A stretch of 36,708 nt of DNA. Source: a virus. The notes beneath the pieces are model-generated. The model made no database searches, was not told the DNA's origin, and saw only the letters and a program-made list of their open reading frames with translations. The position numbers and the translations under genes are program-made. The DNA lies in the IMG/VR virus record IMGVR_UViG_3300044766_000037, positions 1-36,708 of that record; one strand, given 5' to 3'. Each line of letters starts with the position of its first letter. The stretch's first letter is position 1. This document shows positions 5,537 through 33,419 of this stretch, one piece after another.

Positions 5537-6844
5537 ATGCGTAAATTTGGCCTATGCATTTTTTTGATAGTCGTTCTGGCGTCGTTTGGGTTTGGACAGG
5601 GGTCGCTTTCTCCAATGCCGCATCTGCAGTTTTTCAATAACACGGGTACAGTCTGCGCTTCATGCATTCTTTACACCTACGCGGCTGGAGGCACTACCCC
5701 GCTTGCGACTTATTCTGACGATAATTTGGGAACCGCGAATCCGACAACTATTACTTTGAATTCAGCCGGACGGCCGTCGGTGAGTAATGCTGAGGTCGCA
5801 ATTTATCTAGATCCGGCGACGGCTTACAAATTCTTGCTTAAGACAAGCGTTGGGGCTACTGTTTGGACACAAGACACAATCAAAGGGATCGATGCGCTTC
5901 TTGAAGAGGATCTGGCGGCGGTGACGTCAGGAAACGGGGCTGCGAAGATTGGTTATAGCCAAGCGACTGGCGTCAACCGTACGGTGAAGTTAGTCTTAGA
6001 CGAGATGCCGACGTTGAAGGGCGAAGGCGCGCTTGGAAACGGCACGACAAACGATTCAGGGGCGTTATCGAGTGCCTGCACCGCGCATGATAGCGTAATC
6101 GTCGGTCCAGGGACGTACTTGATTGACTCGAACGTCTCAGTTAGTTGTGTCTTAGATTTCAGAGGCGGAATTTTTTCTATCTCGACTGGAAAAACGTTGA
6201 CGATTACCATTAAGCCTTTAGCGCCTGATACACAGATTTTTATGGGTCCTGGAACGGTCGTAGTGTCTAATGCAAAGGCGAAGTGGTTCGGGTCTACTAC
6301 CGAACAAATTGTCGCGCCTGGCGCGTTAACCGCCGCGGTGGGCGCCGCAACCGGTCTGACAGGAACTTATTACTACCAGGTCACATACGTGACTCCATTG
6401 GGAGAAACGCAAGCGGGCACGGTATCGACTGTCGTCTCTCCTTCAAACCAAAAAGTCAACCTGAGTTCTATCCCTGTCTCCTCTGATACTACGGTTACCG
6501 GCCGAAACATCTATAGAACTGTGGCAGCTGGCACTGGATTTAAATATCTTGTCACGAATCTTCTCAATAACACGACGACTACTTATATTGACAATATAGC
6601 GGACGGCTCGTTGGGAGCCGCGGCTCCGCTTGTCAACTCGACTGGTGGCCAATATTCTATCGACGGCCGAGTGCTGTTCTACGGTTTATCAAATGCCACG
6701 GCGTCAAGTCAAGTTTTTGATGTGAACGGCAGGTTGAGCATATTAACTTGCCCAGAGTACGCCGATAACGCCGCGGCGCTTGCGGCAGGCCTCAAAATCG
6801 GAGATATTTATAGAACGGTCGATGCGGTAAAGGTAGTTCATTAA
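5537..6844 (+). CDS. Tail spike/fibre-like protein with N-terminal signal peptide
   Basis: The 435-residue protein has a strong SD (TTAGGAGGTTGT) directly before an ATG that encodes a Sec-type signal peptide: basic MRK, a hydrophobic core to about residue 18, and a likely cut near FGFG/Q. The mature part begins with SPMPHLQFFNNTGT and then LATYSDDNLGT (~60), the typical N-terminal attachment domain of phage tail proteins. A pectate-lyase-like segment follows (GTTNDSGAL...GPGTYLIDSNV, ~168-200), then fibronectin-like repeats. The C-terminus, YADNAAALAAGLKIGDIYRT, is a common tail-fibre ending. A signal peptide on a virion protein is unusual. Confidence 0.75.
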   Translation: MRKFGLCIFLIVVLASFGFGQGSLSPMPHLQFFNNTGTVCASCILYTYAAGGTTPLATYSDDNLGTANPTTITLNSAGRPSVSNAEVAIYLDPATAYKFLLKTSVGATVWTQDTIKGIDALLEEDLAAVTSGNGAAKIGYSQATGVNRTVKLVLDEMPTLKGEGALGNGTTNDSGALSSACTAHDSVIVGPGTYLIDSNVSVSCVLDFRGGIFSISTGKTLTITIKPLAPDTQIFMGPGTVVVSNAKAKWFGSTTEQIVAPGALTAAVGAATGLTGTYYYQVTYVTPLGETQAGTVSTVVSPSNQKVNLSSIPVSSDTTVTGRNIYRTVAAGTGFKYLVTNLLNNTTTTYIDNIADGSLGAAAPLVNSTGGQYSIDGRVLFYGLSNATASSQVFDVNGRLSILTCPEYADNAAALAAGLKIGDIYRTVDAVKVVH

Positions 6845-6870
6845 ATGCAGGTTTTTTGAGGGTTTTACCT

Positions 6871-7104
6871 ATGTTGACTCCAGGAGAAATTTGGCCAATG
6901 ATTGCTGGTTCGGCCGTAGTAGTATATGGCGCTGGTCATTTTATTGGAAGTATTGTAACGAAAATCAGCAATGGAAAACATGTGACGAAAGAAGTATGTT
7001 CTGCGGTTCACATGGCGACTGCGGAACACCTAAAAAGAATTGACATAAATGTCGACCGTATTTGGAGGCGTCTTGACGGTCAAACAATAGAAGGTGACGA
7101 ATGA
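6871..7104 (+). CDS. Small membrane protein of the lysis cassette (77 aa)
   Basis: I place the start at the ATG preceded by GAGGG eight bases upstream. A TTG at 6856 would add five residues but has no SD. Residues ~8-29 form one hydrophobic segment (MIAGSAVVVYGAGHFIGSIV), and the rest is a charged amphipathic helix (AEHLKRIDINVDRIWRRL). Its stop overlaps the endolysin ATG (ATGA). One membrane helix followed by a coiled-coil tail fits a pinholin-, spanin- or XhlA-like accessory lysis protein. The exact class cannot be decided. Confidence 0.6.
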   Translation: MLTPGEIWPMIAGSAVVVYGAGHFIGSIVTKISNGKHVTKEVCSAVHMATAEHLKRIDINVDRIWRRLDGQTIEGDE

Positions 7105-7526
7105 ACGTACTCTGGCAAGACTACCAACTAACACTTCTGGCGTTGGTAATATGGCGCGAAACTCGAGGAGCCGGGGCTGCCTGCATGGCAGCGGTCGGAT
7201 GCAGTATCCGCAATCGCGTAAAGAAACCAACATGGTGGGGCAAGAACTACATCGACGTCATTACTAAGAAGTGGCAGTACAGCTCAATGGCTGCATTGAA
7301 TGACCCGCAGTTGGTCAAGTACCCGCAAGCCGGAGATACTGAGTTCGATTTTGCCTTGCGTTTAGCCGCTGACGTTATTATTGACAAAACTATCAGTCCT
7401 TTTCCTGGTGCCGACAGTTATTTTGACGACTCGATTCCAGCGCCGAAATGGGCGACGCCTGAAACTTTTTGCGGTAAGATCGGACGCATTTCGTTCTATA
7501 ATTTAGACAAAGATGTGGAGGCATAG
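7101..7526 (+). CDS. Endolysin, SleB/CwlJ-type cell wall hydrolase
   Basis: The 141-residue protein matches the SleB/Hydrolase_2 family. LALVIWRETRGAG (residues 13-25) has the predicted catalytic Glu20. It is followed by AAVGCSIRNRV, WWGKNY, a WQYSSM motif (~60), and ADSYFDDS...PKWA (~107-121), ending with IGRISFYNL. These enzymes cleave peptidoglycan. In phages they act as endolysins released by the holin. There is no signal or anchor sequence, so it needs a membrane-permeabilising partner, and small membrane-protein genes flank it on both sides. Confidence 0.85.
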   Translation: MNVLWQDYQLTLLALVIWRETRGAGAACMAAVGCSIRNRVKKPTWWGKNYIDVITKKWQYSSMAALNDPQLVKYPQAGDTEFDFALRLAADVIIDKTISPFPGADSYFDDSIPAPKWATPETFCGKIGRISFYNLDKDVEA

Positions 7527-7527
7527 C

Positions 7528-7770
7528 ATGAAAAGATGGTATGATGTGCTATTGGATGAAAAGATAATTACATGCTTGTTAATTATATTTTGCGCCCTTT
7601 GCATTTTTGTTCTAGTTCATATGCAAGCAGATGAAAAGTATATTGTCGTCTTCGGGGCTGCAATTACTACGTTGGTTGGTTCTTTGGTACGCGGCACTAC
7701 GCATTCCATTCAACCAACAGATTCAAGTCAATCTGTTTCACAAACAACAACTATCACTCCAAAGGAGTAA
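7528..7770 (+). CDS. Holin candidate (80 aa, two membrane helices)
   Basis: The ATG at 7528 lies six bases after GGAGG (7517-7521), so the in-frame ATG at 7513 is unlikely to be the start. Residues ~13-33 (IITCLLIIFCALCIFVLVHM) and ~39-57 (YIVVFGAAITTLVGSLVRG) are hydrophobic, and a Ser/Thr/Gln-rich polar tail follows. Size, two helices and its place directly after the endolysin fit a small holin that forms membrane lesions at lysis. It has no diagnostic family motif. The gene at 6871 is the alternative holin. Confidence 0.6.
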   Translation: MKRWYDVLLDEKIITCLLIIFCALCIFVLVHMQADEKYIVVFGAAITTLVGSLVRGTTHSIQPTDSSQSVSQTTTITPKE

Positions 7771-7776
7771 AACTAT

Positions 7777-8280
7777 ATGAAAACTTTTCTACGACTTTTG
7801 ATTTTACTAGTTTCCTTGCCTTTAATGTTTCTTTGTACTGCTACTGCTCAAGATCAATCTACTTCACGCTTTGGCGCCTTAGGCCTAGGATACGATAATC
7901 TCGGCAGTCCTTCAATACAGGGATTCACGGCCTTTGGGATTCCTATTTCCGATAAATTCATCAACTACACGGCTATGGATATTTCACGTGTACAGCAAGA
8001 CGGTATGGTTACAGTGGCAGGCATCCCGCTTACTTATCGGTTCAGGTCGGGATTTGCTTACAAGATTTATGCCATTACCCCTGGAACAACCCTTTATGGC
8101 CTTGGTGATGCGGGTATGGCAGCAAACGGTAGTGTGTTGGTGGGTGCTTTTGAGTACGGTGGATTTATAGACCAAGCTCTTGGTAAAGGATGGGGGTTGA
8201 TGGTGATCCTCTCTGCCCAAAGAGATGCCATAAATGGGACTCGATTTAATCCTGGATTCGGGCTGAGGAAGAAGCTTTAA
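7777..8280 (+). CDS. Exported, outer-membrane-barrel-like protein (167 aa)
   Basis: A strong AAAGGAG precedes the ATG. Residues 1-25 form a clear signal peptide (MKTFLR, hydrophobic core, cleavage near ATA/Q). The ~142-residue mature part alternates hydrophobic and polar residues with many Gly and aromatic residues (GALGLGYDNLG, QGFTAFGIPI, YKIYAITPG, AFEYGGFIDQ, GWGLMVILSAQ), resembling a small outer-membrane beta-barrel. Phage-encoded outer-membrane proteins such as lambda Lom are precedents. A role in receptor masking, superinfection exclusion or envelope disruption is inference. The stop overlaps the next ATG by one base. Confidence 0.6.
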   Translation: MKTFLRLLILLVSLPLMFLCTATAQDQSTSRFGALGLGYDNLGSPSIQGFTAFGIPISDKFINYTAMDISRVQQDGMVTVAGIPLTYRFRSGFAYKIYAITPGTTLYGLGDAGMAANGSVLVGAFEYGGFIDQALGKGWGLMVILSAQRDAINGTRFNPGFGLRKKL

Positions 8281-8522
8281 TGGACATTACTGGATTACAA
8301 AAAGCTGTAGATAAATTAACTAATGAAGCCGTCCCCGCTCTTACAGGGGCGGTTGAAAAACTTATAGAGTCGGCTGATAAACATATAGATGAAGATCTCG
8401 TTCAAATTATTGCTAGCCTTAATGGATTGGCCTTAACTGTCGTCAATGACCTTCATTGCCTTTTGGATCGGCTAAACGGTTCTACTATTACCCACACTTT
8501 CAATATTCCCCCGAGGGTTTAA
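8280..8522 (+). CDS. Small helical protein of unknown function (80 aa)
   Basis: The ATG overlaps the previous stop (TAATG), with GAGGAAG upstream. The product is mostly amphipathic helix up to about residue 66 (LQKAVDKLTNEAVPAL, VEKLIESADKHIDEDLVQII). A short beta-like tail, THTFNIPPRV, follows. It has no signal peptide or membrane segment. It sits between two exported proteins in the same operon and is separated from the next ATG by one base. It may partner the exported proteins, but nothing in the sequence states its job. Confidence 0.5.
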   Translation: MDITGLQKAVDKLTNEAVPALTGAVEKLIESADKHIDEDLVQIIASLNGLALTVVNDLHCLLDRLNGSTITHTFNIPPRV

Positions 8523-8523
8523 A

Positions 8524-8871
8524 ATGAAAAACCTATTCTTGATAATTCCTTTGCTTTTTATAGGGTGCGCCAAAGCAGCCGACGTAAAATGGGCTTGGGA
8601 TCCGCTTATACCGGCGCCTTCAGGCGTGGAGATTCGCATCATGGATAGCACGGACGTGGTTATCCAGACTCAGGATTGCGGACCAGCTCCTCTATCAGAA
8701 TGCCTCACGCCAGCGGTCACGCCTGGGAATAGGAAGGGTCAGGCATTTGCGTATCAGCTCGGAGTTCCTACTGCGATCAAGCAATACGGGCTTGGGAGTA
8801 ATATTGTGTCGTTTACTGTGCCAATCACTCCTGGCACTATCATAAATAACCACATAAAAATTCCGCAGTAA
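8524..8871 (+). CDS. Exported or lipoprotein-like protein (115 aa)
   Basis: GAGGG lies seven bases before the ATG. The N-terminus (MKNLFLIIPLLFIGCAKA) is a short signal peptide. FIGC is a near-lipobox with Cys14 as a possible lipid-attachment site, and AKA/A is an alternative signal-peptidase I site. The remaining ~100 residues begin VKWAWDPLIP and look like a single fibronectin III-like beta-sandwich with a Cys pair (about Cys53 and Cys61). It is the last gene before the terminator. An envelope-anchored accessory lysis or exclusion lipoprotein is possible. A spanin is less likely because it is not Pro-rich and short. Confidence 0.55.
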   Translation: MKNLFLIIPLLFIGCAKAADVKWAWDPLIPAPSGVEIRIMDSTDVVIQTQDCGPAPLSECLTPAVTPGNRKGQAFAYQLGVPTAIKQYGLGSNIVSFTVPITPGTIINNHIKIPQ

Positions 8872-8882
8872 TTGCTGCTTTA

Positions 8883-8912
8883 AGGACGCTCGTGAGACAA
8901 CACGAGCGTCCT
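8883..8912. terminator. Bidirectional hairpin terminator between convergent blocks
   Basis: A perfect 12-bp inverted repeat, AGGACGCTCGTG / CACGAGCGTCCT, with the six-base loop AGACAA lies 11 bases after the last plus-strand lysis gene and 6 bases after the minus-strand gene ending at 8919. Its location between convergent operons and its perfect stem support transcription termination. The U-tract is poor on both sides, so it may depend on Rho or simply block read-through. Confidence 0.75.
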
Positions 8913-8918
8913 CTCGCC

Positions 8919-9374
8919 TTATACCTTCATCCACGTTCGACCGGCTTTGAGCCATATGTCTTCAGCTACGAGATGTGAGTACAACTCGTGATAGCAAATT
9001 TGTCTGCAGCTGGTGTTGAGAAGAAGTTTGATGCAGGTAATACATGGAGAAGTCGTAACATAGCATGCGTCGATTTCATGCACGTCACGACACTGCAGCA
9101 ACGCATTCTGTTCTGCATGAATTGCCTGGCATAAATCGAGGTCCTTTCCGCTTTCAGCTTGAGCACCGGTACATGAAAACGGGTATTGTTGTTCCCCAAA
9201 TTTATTTTCTTCATTACAATGCGGTAAGCCAGCCGCCACGCCGTTATAGCCGGTTGACAACACGTGGCCACGAGCATTTAGCAACACGCAACCGACGTGG
9301 CGGCGCAGACAGGTGCTACGTTTCGCAGTTACTGCCGCCATCTCCATTGCCCATTGATCTTTACTTGGTCTCAT
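8919..9374 (-). CDS. dCMP deaminase
   Basis: The 151-residue zinc-dependent cytidine/deoxycytidylate deaminase-family protein shows the catalytic HAEQNAL (His86, Glu88) and PCITC (Cys111, Cys114) zinc motifs, plus GYNG (residues 42-45) typical of dCMP deaminases. It would convert dCMP to dUMP in the cytoplasm. It is the last gene of the minus-strand operon, and its start overlaps the end of the ThyA-family gene by 14 bases. Phage T4 encodes the same activity next to its cytosine-replacement pathway. Here it may feed dUMP to thymidylate synthesis or balance the dCMP pool. Confidence 0.85.
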   Translation of the reverse strand: MRPSKDQWAMEMAAVTAKRSTCLRRHVGCVLLNARGHVLSTGYNGVAAGLPHCNEENKFGEQQYPFSCTGAQAESGKDLDLCQAIHAEQNALLQCRDVHEIDACYVTTSPCITCIKLLLNTSCRQICYHELYSHLVAEDIWLKAGRTWMKV

Positions 9375-10158
9375 AGTACCACCACCTTAATGTCGACGTA
9401 GTTGACGACGTGCGAAGCCGTTCAAGCGCAGTTATTAGGATCGTCGGACTTTGGAAAAATTCAATTGGTGTGTATAGTTGATTATACTTGTATTCACTGC
9501 AGATGCAAGCCTTGGCTTGCTCCCAGTTTTCTTTATATAAATGGCTTGACACCGCCGTCAAATAAAGCAGTCCTGGGTTGTAGTTAGTTTTCCCGCAGTT
9601 GACATAATTCAGCGTTGCGCAAATGTAATGGCTCAACATGCTGAAATTAAACACGTCGTACGGAATGCCGAGCCATACGTCGCTTGAGCGCATAAGAACA
9701 CTGGTATGAAGCACGCCATCACGAATATTGAAGACGAGGCCGATGGTGCATGGTACGTCTTTTGTCTTTGGCGGATTTTCACGCCAGATGGTCATCGCCG
9801 CTTGGCGAGTGTCGCGGTTTTCTAACAGCGTGTTTATAACGTAGTCAAGTTGATCATGGATCCGCGGCCCGTATGCGCCGTAGAACGTTCTGCCGTCATC
9901 ACTAAATTCAGCGATGCGCTTATTAAACGGCGCGATGGTCTCAACGCGATTATCGCCTGAGAGTATCCAATATGCCTCAGCCGCCATGAACTGATAGCTG
10001 AGCTTTCGTTCAGGTATGACCAGCACTGGACGCCTCATATCGACAACGATCGTCTGATGAAGCAGCTCCTTAGTCGTCAGGCCTCGTGGCGTCGTGTTCT
10101 GTCCGTCGCATAAGATGCGGTCTAATAAATGCAACCACTCTTGGTCGAAGTTCTTCAT
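9361..10158 (-). CDS. ThyA-family enzyme, probable dCMP methylase/hydroxymethylase
   Basis: The 265-residue protein has the ThyA core. The nucleophile is Cys137 in DVPCTIG. Exactly 20 residues later, as in E. coli ThyA, comes RSSD (157-160) and then LGIPYDVF. The substrate-base position (E. coli Asn177, eight residues after the RS-D Asp) is Asp168. Asn at this site marks dUMP enzymes, while Asp is found in T4 dCMP hydroxymethylase and in engineered dCMP-methylating ThyA. The His after the catalytic Cys is replaced by Thr138. HLY (206-208) is kept. I therefore favour a dCMP methylase or hydroxymethylase over a plain thymidylate synthase. The start overlaps the kinase stop (ATGA). Confidence 0.8.
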   Translation of the reverse strand: MKNFDQEWLHLLDRILCDGQNTTPRGLTTKELLHQTIVVDMRRPVLVIPERKLSYQFMAAEAYWILSGDNRVETIAPFNKRIAEFSDDGRTFYGAYGPRIHDQLDYVINTLLENRDTRQAAMTIWRENPPKTKDVPCTIGLVFNIRDGVLHTSVLMRSSDVWLGIPYDVFNFSMLSHYICATLNYVNCGKTNYNPGLLYLTAVSSHLYKENWEQAKACICSEYKYNQLYTPIEFFQSPTILITALERLRTSSTTSTLRWWYYETK

Positions 10159-11075
10159 AGAACGCCTTTCAGTTTGAACTGTTGGTATAGTGGAAAATAT
10201 GTGTCAGACTTAAATCGCTTCCAATACTGTGGGTGCTCGATCTTTACTACGGAGTCACACATTGGACGTACTACGTCGTAAGCATTGTCTCCGAAGGCAA
10301 TAATTAGCTTACGCTCGGGCTTGAGAATTTCCTCAAGCGGCTGATCGGCGTTGACCCACGCAATTCGGCTTTCACGAATTTGGAAATTAATTAATTCGTC
10401 AGTCAGCCAACGACTGCAGCCATCGTCGCTGAACGACGCGAACGGCCATTGATAAAATAGATCTTGCTTTTTATGATTGGCGAACTTGTCACCGATCAGC
10501 AGCACCTCGCCCTTCCAATTTCCGGCTGAATTTAAGCTCCATGGATGCCTCAAATATCGGTGCTGGTCGACTGTCTTTAATATTTCGTAGTTCATCTCTG
10601 TGTAGTCATAAGTAATAGACGGCAGGTCGAATTTATCGATGCGGTAAAGATTATGGATTATCTTCATCTGTTTCATCACGTCATAAATAATCCTGCTATG
10701 GCTAGATTTAATGAAGTTTGCCATGACTTCGTCCCAGCCGGGGTCGCAGTAAACTACCACGGCGCCGCATTTCATTGCCAGCCGTTCGAGCATCCGGCAG
10801 TCGGCACGCGTTAAGCGTGAAGTACCTTCACGCAGCACCGCACCATATGGCGCTTCGCTCAACCAACAACGGTCGAATACTACGTCTTGGTATCCCAGGA
10901 GCGCCGGTATCATGGCCTCGGCGTACATCCGTGCCAGGCCTGCACCAACTCGCGGTAGGTCGTTGAAGTGAACCAGTCGTGCATTGGTCTCTTCGGCATA
11001 GCGTATAGCAGCCGTGGTCTTGCCGCTACCATTGCAGCCTTCAAATATTGTCAGCTTTTTGCAGGTGAATAGCAT
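10155..11075 (-). CDS. dNMP kinase fused to a UDG-superfamily-like domain
   Basis: I choose the ATG at 11075 (306 residues), with GGGAG upstream. A longer TTG start at 11180 would overlap the previous gene by 140 bases. Residues ~1-165 are a P-loop nucleoside monophosphate kinase, with Walker A GCNGSGKT (13-20) and the phosphate-binding DRCWLSEAPYG (68-78). Residues ~185-306 resemble a uracil-DNA glycosylase fold: EVLLIGDKFAN, PFASFSDDGCSRWL, IAWVNAD, LIIAFGDNA and HPQYWKRF correspond in order to UDG-superfamily motifs. The kinase would make dNDPs, perhaps of a modified base. The role of the second domain is unknown. Confidence 0.75.
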   Translation of the reverse strand: MLFTCKKLTIFEGCNGSGKTTAAIRYAEETNARLVHFNDLPRVGAGLARMYAEAMIPALLGYQDVVFDRCWLSEAPYGAVLREGTSRLTRADCRMLERLAMKCGAVVVYCDPGWDEVMANFIKSSHSRIIYDVMKQMKIIHNLYRIDKFDLPSITYDYTEMNYEILKTVDQHRYLRHPWSLNSAGNWKGEVLLIGDKFANHKKQDLFYQWPFASFSDDGCSRWLTDELINFQIRESRIAWVNADQPLEEILKPERKLIIAFGDNAYDVVRPMCDSVVKIEHPQYWKRFKSDTYFPLYQQFKLKGVL

Positions 11076-11490
11076 CGTCACGTTGGTTCTCCCTTCTAGC
11101 GGCTTTCGCCCGATAACCATGTTTATGGAGGATCTTCTGAGTCTGAGGACCTTTCCATCCCGGTGGCTTGACGCAATCAACTAGGTGGCCGCGAGGTCCG
11201 ACGCCGCGGACCTTCGTCATATTGGCTCGCTGTACGTCGTCCCAAAGTTCGTCCCACGGAATGCCAAGCATGCATGCCGTGCCCTTGGCGAAGTAGACAA
11301 GATCTATCAGTGCGTCGGCCTGAGCCGCCAGGTCTTGGTTAAACACGGCTTCATTGAACTCTCTAAGTTCTTCATACATGCATTCGAAGCGCTCAACTAG
11401 TTTTCGTTTGGTTAGATGGCCGGGAACGCCGAATTCGAGAATCCCAAATTTTTTGTAGAACGTGCGAACGTCTTCAAGTTCTTTGTCCAT
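11041..11490 (-). CDS. MazG-like nucleotide pyrophosphohydrolase
   Basis: The 149-residue all-alpha NTP pyrophosphatase-like protein has the acidic helix MYEELREFNEA (residues ~39-48) and ADALIDLVYFAKGTA (58-72). WDELWDDVQRANMTKV and a C-terminal KPPGWKGP, usual in phage MazG-like proteins, follow. The family hydrolyses (d)NTPs to monophosphates and pyrophosphate. T4 dCTPase (gp56) belongs to the same all-alpha superfamily. The gene overlaps the methyltransferase stop by one base and the kinase start by 35 bases. In this cassette a dCTP-hydrolysing role is attractive but not proven. Confidence 0.8.
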   Translation of the reverse strand: MDKELEDVRTFYKKFGILEFGVPGHLTKRKLVERFECMYEELREFNEAVFNQDLAAQADALIDLVYFAKGTACMLGIPWDELWDDVQRANMTKVRGVGPRGHLVDCVKPPGWKGPQTQKILHKHGYRAKAARRENQRDDAIHLQKADNI

Positions 11491-12284
11491 TAGAATGACC
11501 TCCGCGGAAGTTTGGCGGTGATCATCTTAGATGGTCGGCGGCAGACCCACAAATTATTGCGGGCATGGTTAGGAAACAACGGCGCGAAGATACAACTGAT
11601 CGCGTCGTTGTCGTAATAAGCACTCAACGCCTTTGCTACTTGCTGCAGCCATACGTGATCGCAACCGGTAGGCGGCAGACCTTTGCCGATATTTTTTATA
11701 TCCATGAACGTACCGAACCGCTTTTCAACTTGGAGCCCGGTTTTTTGAATTAAAGCGCCGAGCTCATCAATTTTCCACTCGTGTATATGATTGGCGGCGT
11801 GCCTCACGCCATCATAGCATGGGGTAGACATGAGCATGATGCCGCCAGGCTTGAGGCATTCATAGCAGGCGTTCATGAACTTCTTGCCGTTGGCAGCGTT
11901 CATGTGTTCAAGCACCTCGAAATGCACCAGCACGTCGTAGCCGCCAGGCCGGAGCTTGAGGAGCTCCTTATACCGCTCGACGAAGTTAAACTCGCTAAGA
12001 AATGTCAGCCGCTGAGATTCAGATGGTTTGATTTTATTGAGGTCGACACCGACGTAGGTGTTCACATGAGCGGCCGCGCCGCCCGTAAGAATTTTAGAAA
12101 GCGGTTTGTCCTCACCACACCCAACCTCAAGCACGTGGTCCTTTGGAGTAATGAATCTTCTGGCAAAGGACCAGCGAAAAAAATGAGCTGAGTAGTCTCT
12201 GGCGAGTACTTTCCCATGACCATGTTCTCGTAATTGTGTGGTGTCATATTCACGAGTGTCGCGTTCTTTCACTCTTCTGATCAT
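11490..12284 (-). CDS. Class I SAM-dependent methyltransferase
   Basis: The 264-residue protein has motif I VLEVGCGEDKP (51-61), an acidic ribose-binding residue in VGVDLN (Asp81), FEVLEHM (122-128), and LKPGGIMLMSTP (~143-154). It is a Rossmann-fold methyltransferase of the Methyltransf_11/25 type. No target-recognition domain is seen. Small molecules, nucleotides, protein or a modified base are all possible substrates. It is the first gene of the nucleotide-metabolism cassette, with AAGGAGA six bases before the start and a strong hairpin directly upstream of that SD. Confidence 0.8.
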   Translation of the reverse strand: MIRRVKERDTREYDTTQLREHGHGKVLARDYSAHFFRWSFARRFITPKDHVLEVGCGEDKPLSKILTGGAAAHVNTYVGVDLNKIKPSESQRLTFLSEFNFVERYKELLKLRPGGYDVLVHFEVLEHMNAANGKKFMNACYECLKPGGIMLMSTPCYDGVRHAANHIHEWKIDELGALIQKTGLQVEKRFGTFMDIKNIGKGLPPTGCDHVWLQQVAKALSAYYDNDAISCIFAPLFPNHARNNLWVCRRPSKMITAKLPRRSF

Positions 12285-12296
12285 AAAGTCTCCTTT

Positions 12297-12323
12297 TGGC
12301 CTCCGGCATCAAACCGGAGGCCA
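12297..12323 (-). repeat. Perfect hairpin abutting the methyltransferase ribosome binding site
   Basis: TGGCCTCCGG / CCGGAGGCCA form a perfect 10-bp stem with a 7-base loop. On the minus strand the stem ends directly against AAAAGGAG, the SD of the methyltransferase gene, so it has no U-tract. It lies between the gene ending at 12338 and the one starting at 12284. It could be a transcript-end, processing or stability element. Confidence 0.7.
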
Positions 12324-12337
12324 TAGTAGGACATGGG

Positions 12338-13015: not shown

Positions 13016-13059
13016 TGTCGTAGTCCTCATTAAAATCTCGGCTTTTTATCTTGGACCAT

Positions 13060-13088: not shown

Positions 13089-13099
13089 CATTTACTTTA

Positions 13100-14584: not shown

Positions 14585-14623
14585 AATCTATAAAACCTCG
14601 TTTGAAAATAGGCCTACCTAGCC

Positions 14624-21779: not shown

Positions 21780-22117
21780 GGTATCTCCTTTTCTTCCGGC
21801 AGGCCGGCAGACCGCATAGCAGCGCGAATCTCAGCGATCGACCGGTGCGGAAAGTGGTTCATAAGAAGATCGAGCACGCAGCCGTCGACCGCCGACAATT
21901 CCTGGGTATCAGCGTGTCGGTAGACATCAGAGATAAGAAGCACCAAGTCGTCGGGGTTGATAAGGTCTCGCGGCTCTGACGCCTCAAGCAGATGCGAGTT
22001 CAAATCAGTGGCGACGGCGTCGGCATCTGATTTACGAGGAATCGTGCTGACGACGACGCGGCCGTTATACATAACAGCGTATCCAGTTTCGTAAGTGACT
22101 ACAGAGTATTTTTTCAT
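21773..22117 (-). CDS. Unknown early protein (114 aa)
   Basis: GGGGGGAG lies ten bases upstream of the ATG. The N-terminal ~45 residues (YSVVTYETGYAVMYNGRVVV, then RKSDADAVATDLN) look like a small beta-hairpin plus helix module of a kind common in phage accessory proteins. The C-terminal half is helical and acidic. The start overlaps the stop of the 22114 gene (ATGA). No function is assigned. Confidence 0.55.
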   Translation of the reverse strand: MKKYSVVTYETGYAVMYNGRVVVSTIPRKSDADAVATDLNSHLLEASEPRDLINPDDLVLLISDVYRHADTQELSAVDGCVLDLLMNHFPHRSIAEIRAAMRSAGLPEEKEIPC

Positions 22118-26290: not shown

Positions 26291-26292
26291 TT

Positions 26293-26604: not shown

Positions 26605-26606
26605 CG

Positions 26607-27134
26607 ATGCAAGACCGCTCTGAGAAAAGACGAATCAATCGAATGCTTTCAAACCACGGTTTGCCGACGCTCGACGCACCTAACGGTTTGATGGAGGCTA
26701 TGGGGCGGCGGATCGTCGACCATGGACATTTTCGGTCGTTGCTTAGCCGGTGCGACCCTCGTGAGCGCTATACGATGTACGAGGCGCTTAAGCCGCATCT
26801 GAAATTCACGCCGAAGCCGTTAGACGTCTATGTCGGCGAGGCTGGTTACATCGCGGACAAGAAGCAGCTGCCGACGATGCGGGAAGACGGCACGTTGGCG
26901 CCATACCAGCCGATGGAGTTCCGGTATTTCTGGTCGACGGTCGTTAAGCTAGACAGGATATCAAAAGAAAATTTCGACCAAGCGATGCGGTATCTGATGC
27001 GTGACATTCCTGAAGATAAGTTGGACGAGGTTATTTATAAGGTCCATATCATGCGAAAGACAGATACCGGCGAAGATTACTTGCGAGTCGCCGCCGGTCT
27101 TTATGTTAACGGCGAGGTGCAGAGGATTCAATAA
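26607..27134 (+). CDS. Unknown protein upstream of portal (175 aa)
   Basis: GGAGATAACG precedes the ATG at 26607; a TTG twelve bases upstream would overlap the previous gene. The protein starts with a basic helix (RSEKRRINRMLSNHG). Its middle is rich in aromatic and Pro residues (RERYTMYEALKPHLKFTPKP, ~50-69). Its C-terminal half is helical (FDQAMRYLMRDIPEDKLDEV). No signal or membrane region is present. Its stop overlaps the next microprotein ATG. A head-assembly accessory is plausible, unproven. Confidence 0.55.
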   Translation: MQDRSEKRRINRMLSNHGLPTLDAPNGLMEAMGRRIVDHGHFRSLLSRCDPRERYTMYEALKPHLKFTPKPLDVYVGEAGYIADKKQLPTMREDGTLAPYQPMEFRYFWSTVVKLDRISKENFDQAMRYLMRDIPEDKLDEVIYKVHIMRKTDTGEDYLRVAAGLYVNGEVQRIQ

Positions 27135-27241
27135 TGTTATCTTTTTTGCCGGCATGGATGTTGTGGGTTGCTTTGGGCGTCGGCATATTATTGGTCCTTT
27201 ACATAGCAGCGGTAATTATTTTCATGTTTAAAAGGAAATAA
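27134..27241 (+). CDS. 35-residue transmembrane microprotein
   Basis: The ATG overlaps the previous stop (TAATG), and the frame stops two bases before the next ATG. The product is nearly all membrane helix (LWVALGVGILLVLYIAAVII), with a FKRK basic end giving a positive-inside orientation. The exact packing between neighbours supports real translation. Function is unknown. Confidence 0.5.
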   Translation: MLSFLPAWMLWVALGVGILLVLYIAAVIIFMFKRK

Positions 27242-27243
27242 TA

Positions 27244-27393
27244 ATGCCTTGGACACGGCGTCAAGTTAAAAAGCTTTTGAGCTCGGGATCGCCGCTTACC
27301 CCTGAGCAGCAAACGAAGATGAAGGCGGAACTTCATGAAAATCCTAAGCTTGGGCATGCGCGCAAAGGCTCAAAAGAAATGAAGAGGTCATAG
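27244..27393 (+). CDS. Small basic protein before portal (49 aa)
   Basis: The product reads MPWTRRQVKKLLSSGSPLTP and then KAELHENPKLGHARKGSKEMKR. I recognise this as a frequent short conserved protein encoded next to portal or head genes in phages, without known function. Its stop overlaps the portal GTG by one base, and it follows the membrane microprotein by two bases. Confidence 0.65.
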   Translation: MPWTRRQVKKLLSSGSPLTPEQQTKMKAELHENPKLGHARKGSKEMKRS

Positions 27394-29516
27394 TGGAAGA
27401 CGATCTTAAGGACGTACGAGACGAATTTGCGTATTTAGATGATAAATGGAAAAAGCCTCGCGAAGAGCGCAAAACAGATCTTCGTTACCTCATGGGAGAC
27501 CCCTGGGACCCAAAGGACCGTAAAGCTCGCACTGACGCCGGCCGCCCTTGCCTCAACCACGACGAGCTTAGACAATATGTTAACCAAGCCATCAACTCAA
27601 TGCGCCAAAATAAGCGCGGCATTAAGGTCGACCCAGACGGTAAAAACAGCGACGAGAAGTCGGCTGAGTTGCGACAGGACTTGATCAGAACTATTGAGTA
27701 CAAATGCGGTGCGCCGTACATCTATATATCAAGCGGCTTCGAACAAGCTATTCGTGGCGGCTACGGATTTTTCAGGATTGGGCGGCGCTACGTCGGCAAA
27801 ACGTTCGACCAGGAAATTACGATCAAACCGTTTATGAATCCCGATTCGGTGCTGTTTGATTGGGATTGTAAAGAAGTTGATTGGAGCGATGCGCGCCGCT
27901 GCTTTGTCTTGGACTGGATGCTCAAAGACGACTTTAAGAAGAAATACCCCAAAGCCGAGGCCAAAAGTTTCAGCGCCGAGTACCGGGAGCGGGCTAGCGA
28001 CTGGGTTCACGAGGACAAGATCCTCGTAGCAGAATATTGGAAGGTGGAATGTAAGACGTCGAAGCTTTACATGCTCGAGGGCGGTCAAGTGGTCGATAAA
28101 GTCAACCCTGGGGAATTTGTTAAGAAAGATGAAAGCGGAAAACCTATTACGCGTGACTACGAAGAGAAAACCGTAGTGCAACGGATTACGAACGGCATTG
28201 AATATCTGAAAGAAATTCCGCAGCCTGGCGAGATAATCCCGATCATTCCAGTGATCGGAGAAGAAATTTGGGTTGATGAAGGCATGGGAGCTGAGCGAGT
28301 GTTACTTTCGCTTCCACGGTTGGCGCGTGACCCTCAAATGTCGCTAGCGTATCTGATCTCCCAAATGGCGGAAGAGGCTAAGTTAACGCCGAAGTCGCCG
28401 TTCATGGGGTATAAAGGTCAATTCGAGTCTGACCATGAGGCGTGGGAAAAGCTGACCTCGGACCCGCGGGCGTACATCCAAGTCGACCCAGTGGTCGACG
28501 GCGCCACTGGTCAGGTGCTGCCACTCCCTAATCGCCTTCAGTTTACGCCGAACTTTCAGCAATACATTATCGCTCAAGACAGCTGCCGACGGGCGGTGCA
28601 GGCCGCCATGGGAATTAGTCCGTTACCTACTGCGGCGCAACGGCAAAACGAGAAATCCGGAATCGCGCTTCAACGAATCCAAGAATCACAAGCGGTTGGG
28701 TCGTTTCATTTCAGCGATCGCTTCGATATGTTCCTTTGCTTGGCCGGCAAGGTAATGAATTCATGGATCGATGTCGTCTATGATACTGAGCAAGAGCTTA
28801 CGTTGCGGAAAGCCGACGAGACGACGTATAAGGCGAGGCTTAACACCGAGACGCCTTATATCGATGAGAAAAACCAAGAGCGCCATTATAAGATCGAAGA
28901 AAGTGAGCACCATATTACAATTAGCACCGGCCCAAGCAATCAAAGCCAGCGCGAAGAGGTGACGGACTTCTTAGATTTGATGGTCTCTAACATGGAGACA
29001 CTGCCCGTCGAGCCTCAGCAAAAAGCTAAGATCATGGGGTTGATGATTCGCATGAAAGGCATGGGGCCGCGTGGCGACGAAATGGCCGACATCGTCGATC
29101 CAAAGCCGAAAGAAGGCGAGCAGCAGATTCCTCCTGAAATTCAGCAGCAACTGCAGGAGATGATGCAGAAAATGGAAGCGTTGAATGAATACGCGCAGCA
29201 AAAAGAAGTGGAAATTGAAGAGCTGAACCGTAAGCTTCAGGGACAGGTGATCAACAACCAATATAAGATGGAAATTGAGAAATTAAAGTCTGAAGCTGAG
29301 ATAGCAAAAGCAGAAATTACGACTAAAGCGCAGAGCATGGAAGAGCGCTTGAAGTTTGTTGAGGATATGTTTCAACAGATTCATAGCCAGAACCATGAAG
29401 CGTCTTTGCAAACGGCTCAGCAGGAGCATGAAAGAACTTTGGCCGAAAGTCAACAAACGGCCGCCCAAGCTTCGGGCGCAGTGCCTGAAGGTCAACCAGC
29501 CCAGGAGGGCTTGTAA
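27393..29516 (+). CDS. Portal protein (P22-like)
   Basis: The 707-residue protein has the P22-type portal hallmarks: RKTDLRYLMGDPWDPKDRKA and GRPCLNHDELRQYVNQ (residues ~26-66), FEQAIRGGYGFFRIGRRYVG (~114-133), and PDSVLFDW. The C-terminal ~150 residues are a Gln/Glu/Lys coiled coil (~555-695), the barrel/crown-like extension. It forms the dodecameric ring through which DNA is packaged and ejected. Translation starts at GTG overlapping the previous stop, with GAAGAGG upstream. It is followed by a small gene and the scaffold. Confidence 0.9.
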   Translation: MEDDLKDVRDEFAYLDDKWKKPREERKTDLRYLMGDPWDPKDRKARTDAGRPCLNHDELRQYVNQAINSMRQNKRGIKVDPDGKNSDEKSAELRQDLIRTIEYKCGAPYIYISSGFEQAIRGGYGFFRIGRRYVGKTFDQEITIKPFMNPDSVLFDWDCKEVDWSDARRCFVLDWMLKDDFKKKYPKAEAKSFSAEYRERASDWVHEDKILVAEYWKVECKTSKLYMLEGGQVVDKVNPGEFVKKDESGKPITRDYEEKTVVQRITNGIEYLKEIPQPGEIIPIIPVIGEEIWVDEGMGAERVLLSLPRLARDPQMSLAYLISQMAEEAKLTPKSPFMGYKGQFESDHEAWEKLTSDPRAYIQVDPVVDGATGQVLPLPNRLQFTPNFQQYIIAQDSCRRAVQAAMGISPLPTAAQRQNEKSGIALQRIQESQAVGSFHFSDRFDMFLCLAGKVMNSWIDVVYDTEQELTLRKADETTYKARLNTETPYIDEKNQERHYKIEESEHHITISTGPSNQSQREEVTDFLDLMVSNMETLPVEPQQKAKIMGLMIRMKGMGPRGDEMADIVDPKPKEGEQQIPPEIQQQLQEMMQKMEALNEYAQQKEVEIEELNRKLQGQVINNQYKMEIEKLKSEAEIAKAEITTKAQSMEERLKFVEDMFQQIHSQNHEASLQTAQQEHERTLAESQQTAAQASGAVPEGQPAQEGL

Positions 29517-29517
29517 T

Positions 29518-29733
29518 ATGTCTGCAATCACGCAATTAGCAAAAGATAAAGTGATCCGTGAGCTGGACTACCTTAAAGGCAAGCTCGAGGCTTACGGGTT
29601 GGACCCCAAATGGGACGCAGCAGCTGTCGGCAAGAACCAAGGCAACGCAGCGCTTTCATATGGCATCGAAAAAACCGCGATTCAAGCGGCGGTCACCGAC
29701 ATTGATTCGACGATCGCAACTTGGGTCACTTAA
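29518..29733 (+). CDS. Small protein between portal and scaffold (71 aa)
   Basis: AGGAGGG lies eight bases before the ATG at 29518. Residues 1-25 are a charged helix (LAKDKVIRELDYLKGKLEAYG). GLDPKWDAAAVGKNQGNAAL follows, then an Ala/Thr-rich helix. A longer in-frame reading from 29356 lies inside the portal gene and has no SD. A head-assembly accessory role is suggested only by position. Confidence 0.6.
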   Translation: MSAITQLAKDKVIRELDYLKGKLEAYGLDPKWDAAAVGKNQGNAALSYGIEKTAIQAAVTDIDSTIATWVT

Positions 29734-29747
29734 CCTTAGGAGTTTGA

Positions 29748-30794
29748 ATGCGCGACGAAAATGTTGTTGTGAATCAACCGGCCGATGCAGCACCGTCGCA
29801 GGCCGTGGAAGTTCCAAAGAATTCTGAAGATTACGCCAAATGGCGCTTGACTGGCGCGTTGCCGGAAAAGCCCCAAAAGGCACCCGCGGACGGAGACGCG
29901 AAACCCTCCGATTCCGACGCAGCCGGTAAGGCTGACGAAAAAGGCGCCCCCGCCTCGGAAGCGGGAAAAGAAACTAAGGGCAAAGAGCAACAACCGCGAA
30001 GCACAGCGGCTACTAGGCTCAACGAAATTCTCGCTGACCTGAAGACCGCTGGGTTATCGCCGGCAGAACTCAAGACATTCAAGCGTGAGCACCAAAAGCC
30101 GCTTCCAGTGATAGCAGCACCGGAAAAACCCGTAGAACCAGTGGAACGGCCGAAACGGCCTAAGTACGAAGATTTTGAGGGCGACAACGAGGCTTACGAA
30201 GCAGCCATGGACAAGCATGAAGAATCGCTTGCCGAATGGAAAGCTGAGCAGGCGATCGAACGTTTCAAAAAGAACGAGTCCGATAAGGCGACACGCAATG
30301 AATTGACTTCTAAACTTGCTGAGGCAAAAACTCGGTACGGCGAAGAGGCTCAGTCAGTCATCACGACCACGGTGGGACAAATTGTTGGCGATGCTAAGAT
30401 TTCGATGGAAATCAAACGCATCATCAACGAGTCGCCTGTGTTGGTTGATTTGATGTTTGTTATGGGCCAAAAAGCTGAAGACTTGGCTGATTTTATCAAC
30501 ACGGCACAGGTTGATCCGGGGGCTGCGATTCGTAAGGTCATTCTTCTTGAACGTCTTGTGATGGAAGAGTTGACCAAAAAGAAACCAGCTAAGGCCGATG
30601 GCGATGAAGAAGAGCTTGAGGTCGTTGCAACAACCCTGAAAAAACTCACTAAAGCTCCGCCGCCGCCTGAGGAACTTGGAGGCCATAAAGGTGGCCTTCC
30701 CGACGAGGTGGCAGAAGCTGGCAAGGACGGAGATTTTGCGCGATTTCGAAGGACCGCGAATTCTCGGGACCTTGCGCGTGCGAAAGGACTGTAG
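29748..30794 (+). CDS. Scaffolding protein
   Basis: The 348-residue protein is highly charged. It has an Ala/Pro/Lys-rich disordered N-terminal third (~20-85), a long helical centre (~140-260; EAYEAAMDKHEESLAEWKAE, LTSKLAEAKTRYGEEA), and a basic C-terminal helix (RFRRTANSRDLARAKG) that fits a coat-binding helix-turn-helix. Scaffolds shape the procapsid and leave before DNA packaging. The position between portal and major coat is the P22 order. AGGAG precedes the ATG. Confidence 0.85.
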   Translation: MRDENVVVNQPADAAPSQAVEVPKNSEDYAKWRLTGALPEKPQKAPADGDAKPSDSDAAGKADEKGAPASEAGKETKGKEQQPRSTAATRLNEILADLKTAGLSPAELKTFKREHQKPLPVIAAPEKPVEPVERPKRPKYEDFEGDNEAYEAAMDKHEESLAEWKAEQAIERFKKNESDKATRNELTSKLAEAKTRYGEEAQSVITTTVGQIVGDAKISMEIKRIINESPVLVDLMFVMGQKAEDLADFINTAQVDPGAAIRKVILLERLVMEELTKKKPAKADGDEEELEVVATTLKKLTKAPPPPEELGGHKGGLPDEVAEAGKDGDFARFRRTANSRDLARAKGL

Positions 30795-30797
30795 CAA

Positions 30798-32036
30798 ATG
30801 CCTACAAATAATTTTATCAATACCAACTGGGTGAGCATGGAGATTTTACGCCTTCTGCTCAACAAGTTGGTCGCAGCCGAATATTTCAGCCGTGATTGGG
30901 AGAAAGAATTCAACAAAGAATTCGCGGTTGGAAGTTCGATCAAAGTTAAATTCCCTTGGAGACCGCGCACCATCGACGGGATGGGCTACGTACCTCAGGG
31001 AATCGACCGAATTTATACCACGGTTAACCTCGACCAGTGGATTCAAATCCCCTTTGAGTGGGACGACTACGAAAGAGCCGTCAAGCTTGAGCGCAGTGAA
31101 GAAGAGCTTCGTGAGAACTACTGGGATCCTTGCGCCGCTGCAATGGCGCAGGACATCGACAGCCGTTGTGCGCTTTGGGCTTATCAACATGCCAGCAACG
31201 TCGTTGGCATCGTAGGCACGAACGCGACTAGCGTCGCGACGGCCTATTCTGCTCGTCAGGTTCTCATGGAGCAGGCTTGCCCATCCGGCAAGAAATGCAT
31301 GTTGATTTCGAGCTCTCAGATGAACAGCCTCGGCTCGAACATTACCAACTTCTTTCAACCGGCAGATGAGTTGACGAAGATGTTCAAAGAAGGCGCGCTC
31401 GGCAAATTAGCTGGGTTTGACTTCTTCGAATCGAATTCGTTGTATTCTCATACGACTGGGGTATGGGCCGGTGCGATCACCGTGACTGGCTCCAACCAGA
31501 GCGGAAACTCGCTGATCATCACTGGAACAGCTGGTGACACGTTGAAAAAAGGAGACAAGTTCTCCATTCTTAATGTGAACCAGGTCAACCCGCAGACTCG
31601 GCGGATCGCCGGCGTCGCAAAGGCGAAAACCTTTACGATCATGGAAGATTACACGCTGACAAGTGGTCCTGACACGATCAGCATCCTCCCGGCGATTTAC
31701 GGGCCGGCTTCACAGTATCAGAACGTCGATGCATTGCCGGTCTCCGGCGCGGCATTGACTTCTTGGCCTGGGAGCTCCATGAGCACCTCGGCGAAAACTG
31801 GAACAATCGGCCTTGGGCTTTCACGGTTCGCTTTCATGCTTGTCGGCGCGAAGTTATATGTACCGAAAGCTGTGGAGCGTGCTGGTCAGGCTCAGGACCC
31901 CGATACGGGAATTGCTGTCAGAAAAGTCGAAGCATGGGATCCGGTCCGGTCGATGCAAGTCAACCGTATGGATAGCCTGCTCGGTTTTGGCGATGGCTAT
32001 CAGGATAACGGCGCCGTAGTTTGGGCGATGGCATAG
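30798..32036 (+). CDS. Major capsid protein (P22 coat-like)
   Basis: The 412-residue HK97-fold coat protein has a helical N-arm (~8-45), WRPRTIDGMGYVPQ, WIQIPFEWDDYE (~75-87) and the E-loop region. The insertion-domain-like stretch at ~220-300 (ITVTGSNQSGNSLIITGTAG, then GDKFSILNVNQVNPQTR) matches the telokin-like domain of P22-type coats. The C-terminal VRSMQVNRMDSLLGFG is a strong family signature. It assembles the icosahedral head with the scaffold. Only a modest SD (AGGA) precedes the ATG. Confidence 0.9.
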   Translation: MPTNNFINTNWVSMEILRLLLNKLVAAEYFSRDWEKEFNKEFAVGSSIKVKFPWRPRTIDGMGYVPQGIDRIYTTVNLDQWIQIPFEWDDYERAVKLERSEEELRENYWDPCAAAMAQDIDSRCALWAYQHASNVVGIVGTNATSVATAYSARQVLMEQACPSGKKCMLISSSQMNSLGSNITNFFQPADELTKMFKEGALGKLAGFDFFESNSLYSHTTGVWAGAITVTGSNQSGNSLIITGTAGDTLKKGDKFSILNVNQVNPQTRRIAGVAKAKTFTIMEDYTLTSGPDTISILPAIYGPASQYQNVDALPVSGAALTSWPGSSMSTSAKTGTIGLGLSRFAFMLVGAKLYVPKAVERAGQAQDPDTGIAVRKVEAWDPVRSMQVNRMDSLLGFGDGYQDNGAVVWAMA

Positions 32037-32045
32037 GAGGCCAAC

Positions 32046-33020
32046 ATGAGAAAACTTTTTACAATTTTTGCTTTGCTTCTGTGCCTTGCAGCTCCAATTT
32101 GGGCGCAGACTGATACTACCAATACGACTTTGTCCGCTGCGGTGACTTCTACCTCGGCTACCACGATCAGAGTAACGTCGGCCACTGGGTTTACGGCAGG
32201 ATCTACGTTCGCTTATGTCGACCATGAGCAAATGGAAGTTTTGTCGGTGACTGGCACGTCAATCGGCGTACGGCGTGGTTCGGGATCTACTGGCGCGAGC
32301 ATTCATGCCAGTGGAGCTAGAGTATATGTCGGTCCTTTCTCGGCATTCGTATCTTGGGTGATTAACCCGCTCGGCGCTTGCACTGGTTCAAATTATCCGT
32401 ATCTTCCGGTTATCAACACTAGAACCGGTGCGATATATAACTGCGTTTCTAGCTTATGGACTACGGAGGATTCGTTTACCTCTTTGTTCACGGCGAAGAG
32501 CGCGACGCCAGGTACTTACCGCCAGATCCGCGGTGAGGTGACTACCTACAGCACTATGACTTCAGGAAACTTGGTCGGCGTGCGCGGCGCGGTCACTATG
32601 CCGGCAGCTTCTACTGTTTCAGGGGGCTTTCTTTATGGCGCGCAGGGCAAGGCGATAACAGGAACCGGAACTTTTTCAGGGACTTCTCTGGCCGGCATTT
32701 ATGGTCAATTGGACGTTACTGGAGGCACGGTTTCTGCCGGAAATGTCGCGGCGGTTCAAGCCAACATCTTCGGTTACAATACTGGAACTTCCACGATCAT
32801 CAATAGCATTTACACGGAAGCGGCTGGTGGCGGTATCATCAATGCACACATTCGTATGTTTGGAAAAGCAACCTACGTCTTTGACATTGAAACTAACGTC
32901 CATACTCCGGAAGCCAATACTACATGCACCCCGAGTGCCGTTACAGGCGCCACGGGCGGCATTAAGGTGCTTGTTGATGGGGTAGCTCGTTATATTCCGT
33001 TGGCCGCGACTTGTAGTTAA
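32046..33020 (+). CDS. Signal-peptide-bearing virion-like protein after the coat gene
   Basis: GGAGG lies five bases before the ATG. Residues 1-21 are a Sec-type signal (MRKLFTIFALLLCLAAPIWAQ, cleavage near WA/Q). Next come TTIRVTSATGFTAGSTFAYV and a motif ending IHASGARVYVGPFSAF (~80-95), a pattern seen in phage decoration or tail proteins. The remaining ~200 residues are Gly/Thr-rich repetitive beta-sequence (GTFSGTSLAGIYGQLDVTGG). It follows the coat gene and precedes a terminator. A secreted or surface-exposed version of a decoration-type protein is possible. Function unproven. Confidence 0.65.
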   Translation: MRKLFTIFALLLCLAAPIWAQTDTTNTTLSAAVTSTSATTIRVTSATGFTAGSTFAYVDHEQMEVLSVTGTSIGVRRGSGSTGASIHASGARVYVGPFSAFVSWVINPLGACTGSNYPYLPVINTRTGAIYNCVSSLWTTEDSFTSLFTAKSATPGTYRQIRGEVTTYSTMTSGNLVGVRGAVTMPAASTVSGGFLYGAQGKAITGTGTFSGTSLAGIYGQLDVTGGTVSAGNVAAVQANIFGYNTGTSTIINSIYTEAAGGGIINAHIRMFGKATYVFDIETNVHTPEANTTCTPSAVTGATGGIKVLVDGVARYIPLAATCS

Positions 33021-33040
33021 CCTTTAACCAATATTTTTCA

Positions 33041-33066
33041 GGGCGGGCTGAAAGGCTCGCCCTTTT
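33041..33066 (+). terminator. Rho-independent terminator after the coat operon
   Basis: GGGCGGGC (33041-33048) pairs with GCTCGCCC (33055-33062) over eight positions with one G-U. The loop is TGAAAG and the stem is followed by TTTT. It lies 20 bases after the signal-peptide protein gene and would reduce transcription of downstream tail genes relative to the coat. Confidence 0.8.
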
Positions 33067-33074
33067 AGGGCTTT

Positions 33075-33419
33075 ATGAAATATTTTGTTCGGCTTCTTAT
33101 CCCCTTATTTTTTTGTTTCTCATTGTTCGCTCAGACGTTAGAGCTTCCAGAAGGAGTAGAAATTATGAAGGATCAAACATCAGATCCTAAGCCTTTAGTG
33201 ATTTCCAAAGTTGACTTAGAGCAGCGGCTTGAATCGCTGAAAAAAGCGCATCAAGAGGCGATCGCGAACGTCAACGCCCTCGGCGGAGCAATCCAACAAG
33301 TCGAGATGTTTTTGCAAGAATTGAACGCTCGTGAGCTTGAAGCAAAAAAGCCTAAAATCAAAGAAGTTCCAGGCGTTGTTGAAAAGTCAAAAAAGTGTGA
33401 TGCTAAGGGATGTGAATGA
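33075..33419 (+). CDS. Signal-peptide plus coiled-coil protein (114 aa)
   Basis: The long form has a clear signal peptide (MKYFVRLLIPLFFCFSLFAQ, cleavage near FA/Q). A coiled coil follows (LEQRLESLKKAHQEAIANVN, ~51-70, continuing to ~95), with a Cys-containing basic tail (SKKCDAKGCE). An in-frame ATG at 33165 is preceded by AAGGAG at perfect spacing and would give an 84-residue cytosolic form without the signal. The upstream ATG has a weaker SD (AGGG). Both forms may be made. It may be a tail or head accessory. The stop overlaps the next ATG. Confidence 0.6.
   Translation: MKYFVRLLIPLFFCFSLFAQTLELPEGVEIMKDQTSDPKPLVISKVDLEQRLESLKKAHQEAIANVNALGGAIQQVEMFLQELNARELEAKKPKIKEVPGVVEKSKKCDAKGCE
33151..33167 (+). 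promoter_or_regulatory. Internal ribosome binding site and ATG inside the 33075 gene
   Basis: AAGGAG (33151-33156) with eight bases to an in-frame ATG (33165) is the strongest start signal in this gene. It would bypass the signal peptide, so the gene could yield exported and cytoplasmic products. Confidence 0.5.

Follow-up and report, generated by a model that had tools for sequence, protein, structure and literature searches.

In the textbook account tailed phages assemble their particles wholly in the cytoplasm. Virion proteins with cleavable Sec signals are found in the filamentous phages, where Ff pIII and pVIII are seated in the inner membrane and then extruded, and signal peptides (SPs) also open phage envelope proteins that act outside the cytoplasm, such as Lom and Bor of lambda and Llp of T5. 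The 36.7-kb virus record IMGVR_UViG_3300044766_000037 (the window, meaning the whole stretch of DNA analysed) encodes a tail-spike-like protein and, directly after the coat gene, a second protein (the post-coat protein) that are both predicted to be exported through Sec. The coat protein belongs to the P22 coat family (PF11651, E 1.7e-22, 80.2 bits against a cut-off of 24; PHROG 283, E 2.7e-52), and gene content alone suggests that the virus is a P22-coat podovirus. With P22-type podoviruses such as Vibrio phage VvAW1 it shares the coat family and an overall gene order that runs from the small and the large terminase through the portal to the coat. In contrast, the post-coat gene of VvAW1 (L056) has no SP, and the spike-type domain of three further phage records stands at the protein start without one. 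The likeness to Ff is an analogy only, since both have Sec-signalled virion proteins but here these are only the apparent outer parts of a tailed phage. Lom, Bor and Llp are a possible parallel for two smaller open reading frames (ORFs) of the window, 7777 and 8524, but they do not have the head-binding or tail-fibre folds of virion-type proteins. Endolysins that carry a Sec signal, exemplified by UFJF_PfDIW6 in passages of one report (PMC8951688), are likewise late phage proteins, but lysis enzymes and not virion parts. No report of SPs on tailed-phage virion proteins was recognised in searches of the open-access literature, most subscription journals lying outside them. To our knowledge, no tailed phage has exported outer parts that join the particle late. 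The spike and the fibre-type domain are known kinds of protein; what is new is the export signal with matching Cys pairs.

The proposition that the phage sends outward-facing virion parts through Sec, with disulfides formed outside the cytoplasm and the parts joining the capsid at lysis, stands at about even probability. The spike and the post-coat protein would be made as preproteins and exported through Sec; removal of the signal, most simply just ahead of a Gln that becomes the N-terminus, would leave mature proteins that fold and acquire their disulfides outside the cytoplasm. The capsid, the portal, and the packaging and internal proteins, which have no signal, would assemble in the cytoplasm. 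The two sets would meet at lysis, when the spike would attach to the finished tail by way of its head-binding domain and the post-coat protein to the shell exterior. Joining at lysis is physically plausible because P22 spikes (onto finished heads in vitro) and capsid decoration proteins bind finished particles from the outside. The export potential of both proteins is well supported by their sequences, from which we infer cleavage, disulfides, virion membership and joining at lysis. Such two-compartment assembly, if proved, would be categorically new; lysis would double as a step of assembly, the host's enzymes for export and disulfide formation would become phage host factors, and the signals would mark which structural genes face outward.

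SPs were called with a crude home-made rule, not SignalP, that looks for a positive n-region, a hydrophobic h-region and a small-x-small c-region and adds a small bonus for Q, A, D or E at +1; later scans, from the spike-domain loci onward, tolerated one charged residue in the c-region. The cut-off was 7.2 plus a Shine-Dalgarno sequence (SD) in whole-locus scans, 6.5 in aimed scans and 7 plus SD for the relative G805. In a control on a single E. coli stretch with 49 genes, 45 of which were scored (two truncated and two very short ones were omitted; localisation partly taken from what is generally known of the genes), a score of at least 6.5 detected five of six exported proteins and called one of 39 others (ybhI), while 7.2 detected three of six with the same single false call. 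A first-pass annotation of the window had named five late proteins with Sec signals, and the rule bears this out (Table 1): the five ORFs score 7.4–9.9, are the only ones at or above 7.2 among the 26 late plus-strand genes and have type I (Sec) SP character, so that translocation and cleavage are predicted. The coat and the ORFs of portal, scaffold, terminase and tail-accessory size are negative. A 63-residue two-helix early protein at 22114 is also called, which is taken as a false positive. Whole-protein shuffles of the 26 late genes reach the cut-off in 9 of 5200 cases, and shuffled first 40 residues of the five ORFs in 0–8 of 500. A twin-arginine motif is absent from the signals by eye, no dedicated tool having been applied. 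The cleavage sites proposed earlier are plausible, although for 5537 the best cut by the rule (VLA/S) lies five residues before GFG/Q, and the statement that four of the five genes have a clear SD is fair: AGGAGG or AAGGAG precedes 5537, 7777 and 32046, a weaker GAGG precedes 8524 and the site at 33075 is poor. ORFs are truncated at both ends of the window (35829–36708 and 1–459), and a piece between the ends may be missing.

Table 1. Signal-bearing late ORFs of the window and the coat gene.
Feature	Coordinates	Strand	Length (aa)	Predicted SP	Rule score	Other features
Tail-spike-like protein	5537..6844	+	435	Residues 1–20 (GFG/Q by eye)	8.47	Head-binding-type domain, residues ~22–120, with CxxC
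Orphan	7777..8280	+	167	Residues 1–24 (TATA/Q)	9.93	
Orphan	8524..8871	+	115	AKA/AD, or lipobox-like FIGC	9.43	
Major coat protein, P22 type	30798..32036	+		None by rule		PF11651, PHROG 283; cytoplasmic reference
Post-coat protein, predicted exported	32046..33020	+	324	Residues 1–20 (WA/Q)		Virion-type beta domain, mature 1–122; Cys pair, mature C92/C113
Coiled-coil-like protein	33075..33419	+	114	Present	7.39	Coiled coil by eye

The N-terminal domain of the 5537 protein is homologous to annotated tail spikes, among them that of Xanthomonas phage PBR31 (tblastn E 1e-12, alignment A4). PHROG 26190 matches residues 31–115 and PHROG 511 residues 259–367; beyond the first domain, where a receptor-binding or depolymerase domain would lie, only PHROG 511 and 17680 were matched and no Pfam family. 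Homologues in 16 phage records align from residues 23–28, and all three that were fetched begin at the domain without a signal, as SP-negative homologues mostly do at the domain edge. Across 95 spike-domain hits, 22 were SP-positive by the rule, six by eye (L077, L110, L111, L112, L115 and L119, with no clear start near the signal in L077) and 67 SP-negative. In these numbers SP-positive spikes are over-represented among L101–L180, the best 80 of at least 583 confirmed IMG/VR loci, because the query (A6, the spike domain) was built from SP-positive domains. An SD precedes the start of 19 of the 22 rule-positive spikes, and the rule cuts directly before Gln in 18. The spike domain is present in a single copy in 18 of 18 SP-positive virus records (which may be incomplete). 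An internal start with an SD close to the mature N-terminus is lacking in 21 of the 22 rule-positive genes, the exception being L103, with SD-preceded GTG codons there. Thus, if the particle has this spike, the exported form is the simplest source of it.

The post-coat protein was followed through its neighbour. A coat search of IMG/VR returned 43 loci, and the gene after the coat was identified in 40; 11 of these genes are SP-positive and all 11 are homologues of 32046 (L003, L004, L005, L006, L007, L008, L009, L011, L023, L033 and L040, with L007/L008 and L023/L040 apparent copies), the other 29 being SP-negative. The SP-negative proteins of most of L010–L045 have 133–147 residues and are unmatched by the domain model A5, suggesting that the post-coat slot is swapped as a cassette in close coat relatives. 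The next gene was picked heuristically, and the wrong frame was taken for L101 and L103, whose homologue search shows the SP. In a genome collection seven coat loci were found, six of Acidobacteriota type (two of them bearing order names that we take to belong to this phylum) and one in a Betaproteobacteria metagenome-assembled genome (MAG); the post-coat gene is SP-positive in six of the seven, and the contig of the seventh ends there. The 22 rows of alignment A8 were chosen by hand and trimmed at the Gln or beside it, which partly builds in the Gln at +1; L103, L119 and later finds are not among them. In these rows the two Cys are invariant and the Cys number is even in 22 of 22, at an identity to the window protein of mostly about 30%. 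In all nine uncut post-coat rows the Gln that closes the hydrophobic stretch and the two Cys are invariant despite diverged cores. An AlphaFold2 model of the protein has a pLDDT (predicted local distance difference test score) of 77–97 over mature residues 1–120 (good to ~122) and under 50 for the remainder. The closest folds to this modelled first domain appear to be phage tail-fibre and uncharacterised phage proteins; in a VIA-align comparison with the PDB, ranks 1–6 (Z 8.3–10.7) are virion chains of phages VP1, Chi, JBD30, Mystique, GP4 and LKA1. Many ATP-synthase barrels follow at Z 7–8, so the fold is a common one, and a PDB Foldseek search of the model gave no match under 1e-3. Codon counts over the SP only give pN/pS (nonsynonymous to synonymous) values of 0.27/0.38 for the post-coat gene and 0.50/0.54 for 33075, both too short to use.

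The signals of the two families go together. In all 16 genomes where the spike is SP-positive and a post-coat homologue matches the domain model over its whole length, that homologue has an SP as well (the window, L049, L051, L052, the G001 pair L046/L077, L101–L105, L108, L114, L115, L119, L121 and L140). The 13 of these with a coat in hand form 12 coat clusters at 95%, only L051 and L104 falling within 95%. Conversely, the post-coat gene is SP-negative in 35 of 35 loci with an SP-negative spike and the next gene found (one more locus had none), spread over 14 clusters of coats at 95%. G805, a 42-kb relative read as three pieces, has an SP with SD on four of its 52 ORFs. These are the post-coat gene, the spike and a pair of large ORFs in the tail region (828 and 1360 aa); the coat and the ORFs resembling portal, scaffold and terminase (named by size, order and eye) have none. 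The SP trait thus seems to mark outward-facing parts, though it is not confined to them.

The Cys content follows the signal. Among 80 unique spike domains, 23 of the 25 SP-positive ones have exactly two Cys; 52 of the 55 SP-negative ones have none, three have one and none has two (Fisher p 1e-14, treating related domains as independent). Three layouts of the pair occur: GGC..NCASG, CxxC (shared by the window and L140) and KLC..GTC (L119). Over mature spikes the median is 2.0 Cys per 100 residues with an SP (n=25) versus 0.25 without (n=57), and of the complete spikes that have at least one Cys, 19 of 21 SP-positive versus 17 of 33 SP-negative ones have an even number. VKOR, a disulfide-forming enzyme family, is present in six of the seven genomes holding such loci. 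We read the Cys pattern as pointing to folding in an oxidising compartment.

The host of the window phage is probably a member of the Acidobacteriota. On L049, L051 and L052, from contigs labelled Acidobacteriota, the spike domain carries the signal. Four of 396 sampled Acidobacteriota genomes have the spike domain, SP-positive in G007, G248 and G288 and SP-negative in G200, whose post-coat gene also lacks an SP like its spike; four of 398 genomes of the G001 phylum (Pseudomonadota by MAG label) have it, three SP-negative and G001 SP-positive by eye, with cut-offs of E 1e-6 and 1e-10 for the two samples, respectively, and about a dozen candidates scored per genome. G001 is perhaps mis-binned. 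The G248 chromosome, from the Acidobacteriota, has three consecutive SP-positive ORFs (L081:10693-16680; 315, 456 and 1216 aa), the first with the spike domain. One of the seven coat loci of the genome collection is a prophage-like stretch, with an SP-positive spike and an SP-positive post-coat gene, in Acidicapsa dinghuensis strain 4GSKX (Acidobacteriota), on a contig of 1.16 Mb. The rule called an SP on 16 of the 223 ORFs in 16 stretches sampled from this contig, eight of the 16 with Q at +1 and 11 with AQ within residues 15–36. That Acidobacteriota tailed phages build their virions in two compartments, with cytoplasmic DNA-filled cores and Sec-exported, disulfide-bonded spikes and shell proteins joined at lysis, is tentatively proposed at slightly less than even probability. 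Hosts of Acidobacteriota phages are hard to assign, and the trait may serve to mark such phages in sequence data; the Acidicapsa locus is a candidate experimental system.

Several observations weigh against two-compartment assembly. L106, L109, L110–112, L113, L116, L124 and L167 combine an SP-positive spike with an SP-negative post-coat gene; these discordant genes match A5 not at all or, in L116 and L124, in part. On the coat tree the spike label must change at least twice, and the coats of L106, L109 and L110 lie on its SP-negative side while their spikes group with SP-positive spikes. In L106, L109 and L110–L112, whose coats are of a distant lineage and whose spikes group with the SP-positive ones of the window's lineage, an exported spike gene was likely transferred, as if signal and spike had passed between lineages together. 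The SP-positive spikes of L066 and L067 have no domain Cys, the window and L119 spikes have an odd total, some SP-negative spikes are Cys-rich outside the domain, and the coat is itself richer in Cys in SP-positive genomes (0.74 vs 0.27 per 100 residues). The spike-domain tree is weakly resolved: it has four changes of SP and four of Cys, forces only a single SP change, and leaves an independent-pairs test unable to reach significance. The rule cuts right before the Gln in 13 of the 22 post-coat rows and off it in nine, and the L119 post-coat protein lacks the Gln. L103, L104, L114, L116 and L121 carry further SP-positive ORFs, unnamed and in part on the opposite strand, whose place in the virion is not evident; of the SP-positive ORFs that the whole-locus scans report outside both families, some lie on the opposite strand and are likely false.

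The two proteins could be exported without ever becoming virion parts, as a free depolymerase or a decoy or receptor-masking set that leaves the cell before or during lysis, the virion using another receptor-binding protein. SPs and Cys pairs suit any exported protein, and 7777 may be an outer-membrane protein (by eye), but the spike genes keep the head-binding-type domain in single copy in all 18 records, the first domain of the post-coat protein resembles virion proteins, its gene adjoins that of the coat, and both genes lie within the late structural stretch. This explanation is unlikely, though it keeps appreciable probability. Among the roles for export offered in the first-pass annotation an unusual periplasmic step is accordingly favoured, and decoys, free depolymerase and receptor masking explain the data less well because the single spike copy and the coat-adjacent protein share the SP trait. 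A split fate, in which inefficient export leaves a cytoplasmic part for the virion and gives the exported part a second role, would suit the conserved second start of 33075 and the GTG codons of L103; with 21 of 22 SP-positive spikes devoid of such a start and Cys pairs that suggest an oxidised working form, it is improbable.

The N-terminal segment might also be an uncleaved membrane or virion anchor and no export signal, for which a hydrophobic core alone would suffice and with which the nine post-coat rows cut off the Gln would agree. Nevertheless, the Gln is kept in nine of nine uncut rows whose cores have diverged, the cut falls before Gln in 18 of 22 spikes with a similar +1 habit in the SPs of the Acidicapsa contig, and Cys pairs accompany the SP, which makes an anchor very improbable. 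That the calls reflect chance hydrophobic N-termini or wrong start codons is hardly credible: the predictor is crude, with one false positive each in the window and E. coli, but the shuffle controls, the SD at the start of 19 of the 22 rule-positive spikes and conservation across many contigs all speak against it. For 5537 and 32046 chance and wrong starts were rejected by the shuffle controls and conservation. The earlier claim that the signals are real and translated is therefore well supported for these two, because SP character is kept across many contigs, Cys pairs accompany it and SP-negative homologues mostly begin at the domain edge; for 8524 and, in part, 33075, chance or a wrong start may still apply.

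Export of the spike and the post-coat protein remains the preferred reading. The five ORFs are not a single functional group: 5537 and 32046 are members of conserved families predicted to be exported, 33075 has one known relative, and none was found for 7777 or 8524. Searches with 7777 of Pfam, PHROG, viral contigs, the loci in hand and phage records gave no relative, and all PDB sequence matches had E >0.1. Its mature part may be a small outer-membrane beta-barrel, a reading by eye that is not claimed here and that an AlphaFold2 model with a pLDDT of 34.6 neither supports nor excludes. For 8524 there was no clear relative in Pfam, PHROG, viral contigs or the loci in hand, PDB sequence matches again all had E >0.1, and phage records gave only a weak 46-residue match (E 0.7); its signal could be of the lipoprotein type (FIGC) instead of type I. 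The relative of 33075, in L003, is 58% identical and keeps the signal. The 33075 gene may make an exported and a cytoplasmic form through a dual start, because the SD of the long, signal-bearing start is poor and both genomes keep an internal ATG (33165 in the window) that a good AAGGAG precedes (window 33075-33200; L003 11226-11340).

A GC-rich hairpin (33040–33063, z -2.8) lies between the post-coat gene and 33075, and L003 has one at ~11190–11213 (z -5.1) whose stem bases partly differ from those of the window. The window hairpin may end the coat/post-coat transcript; it was not among the hits of a terminator scan of the window.

A third SP-positive family, recognised by eye, has a paired-Cys motif after the signal (like CTARSCVYMQVP), with members at L102:102, L102:18241, L103:19133, L104:19013, L108:16291, L113:18254 and L006:6913. 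Scans of L102:102, L108:16291 and L113:18254 gave no Pfam or PHROG name, and among ten SP-positive ORFs of relatives PHROGs named one (minor tail protein) and Pfam none. In the window, positions 7101–7526 encode a SleB-like cell wall hydrolase (PF07486) without an SP by the rule, adjoining an 85-residue protein at 7513 with one hydrophobic stretch, and the two are probable lysis genes.

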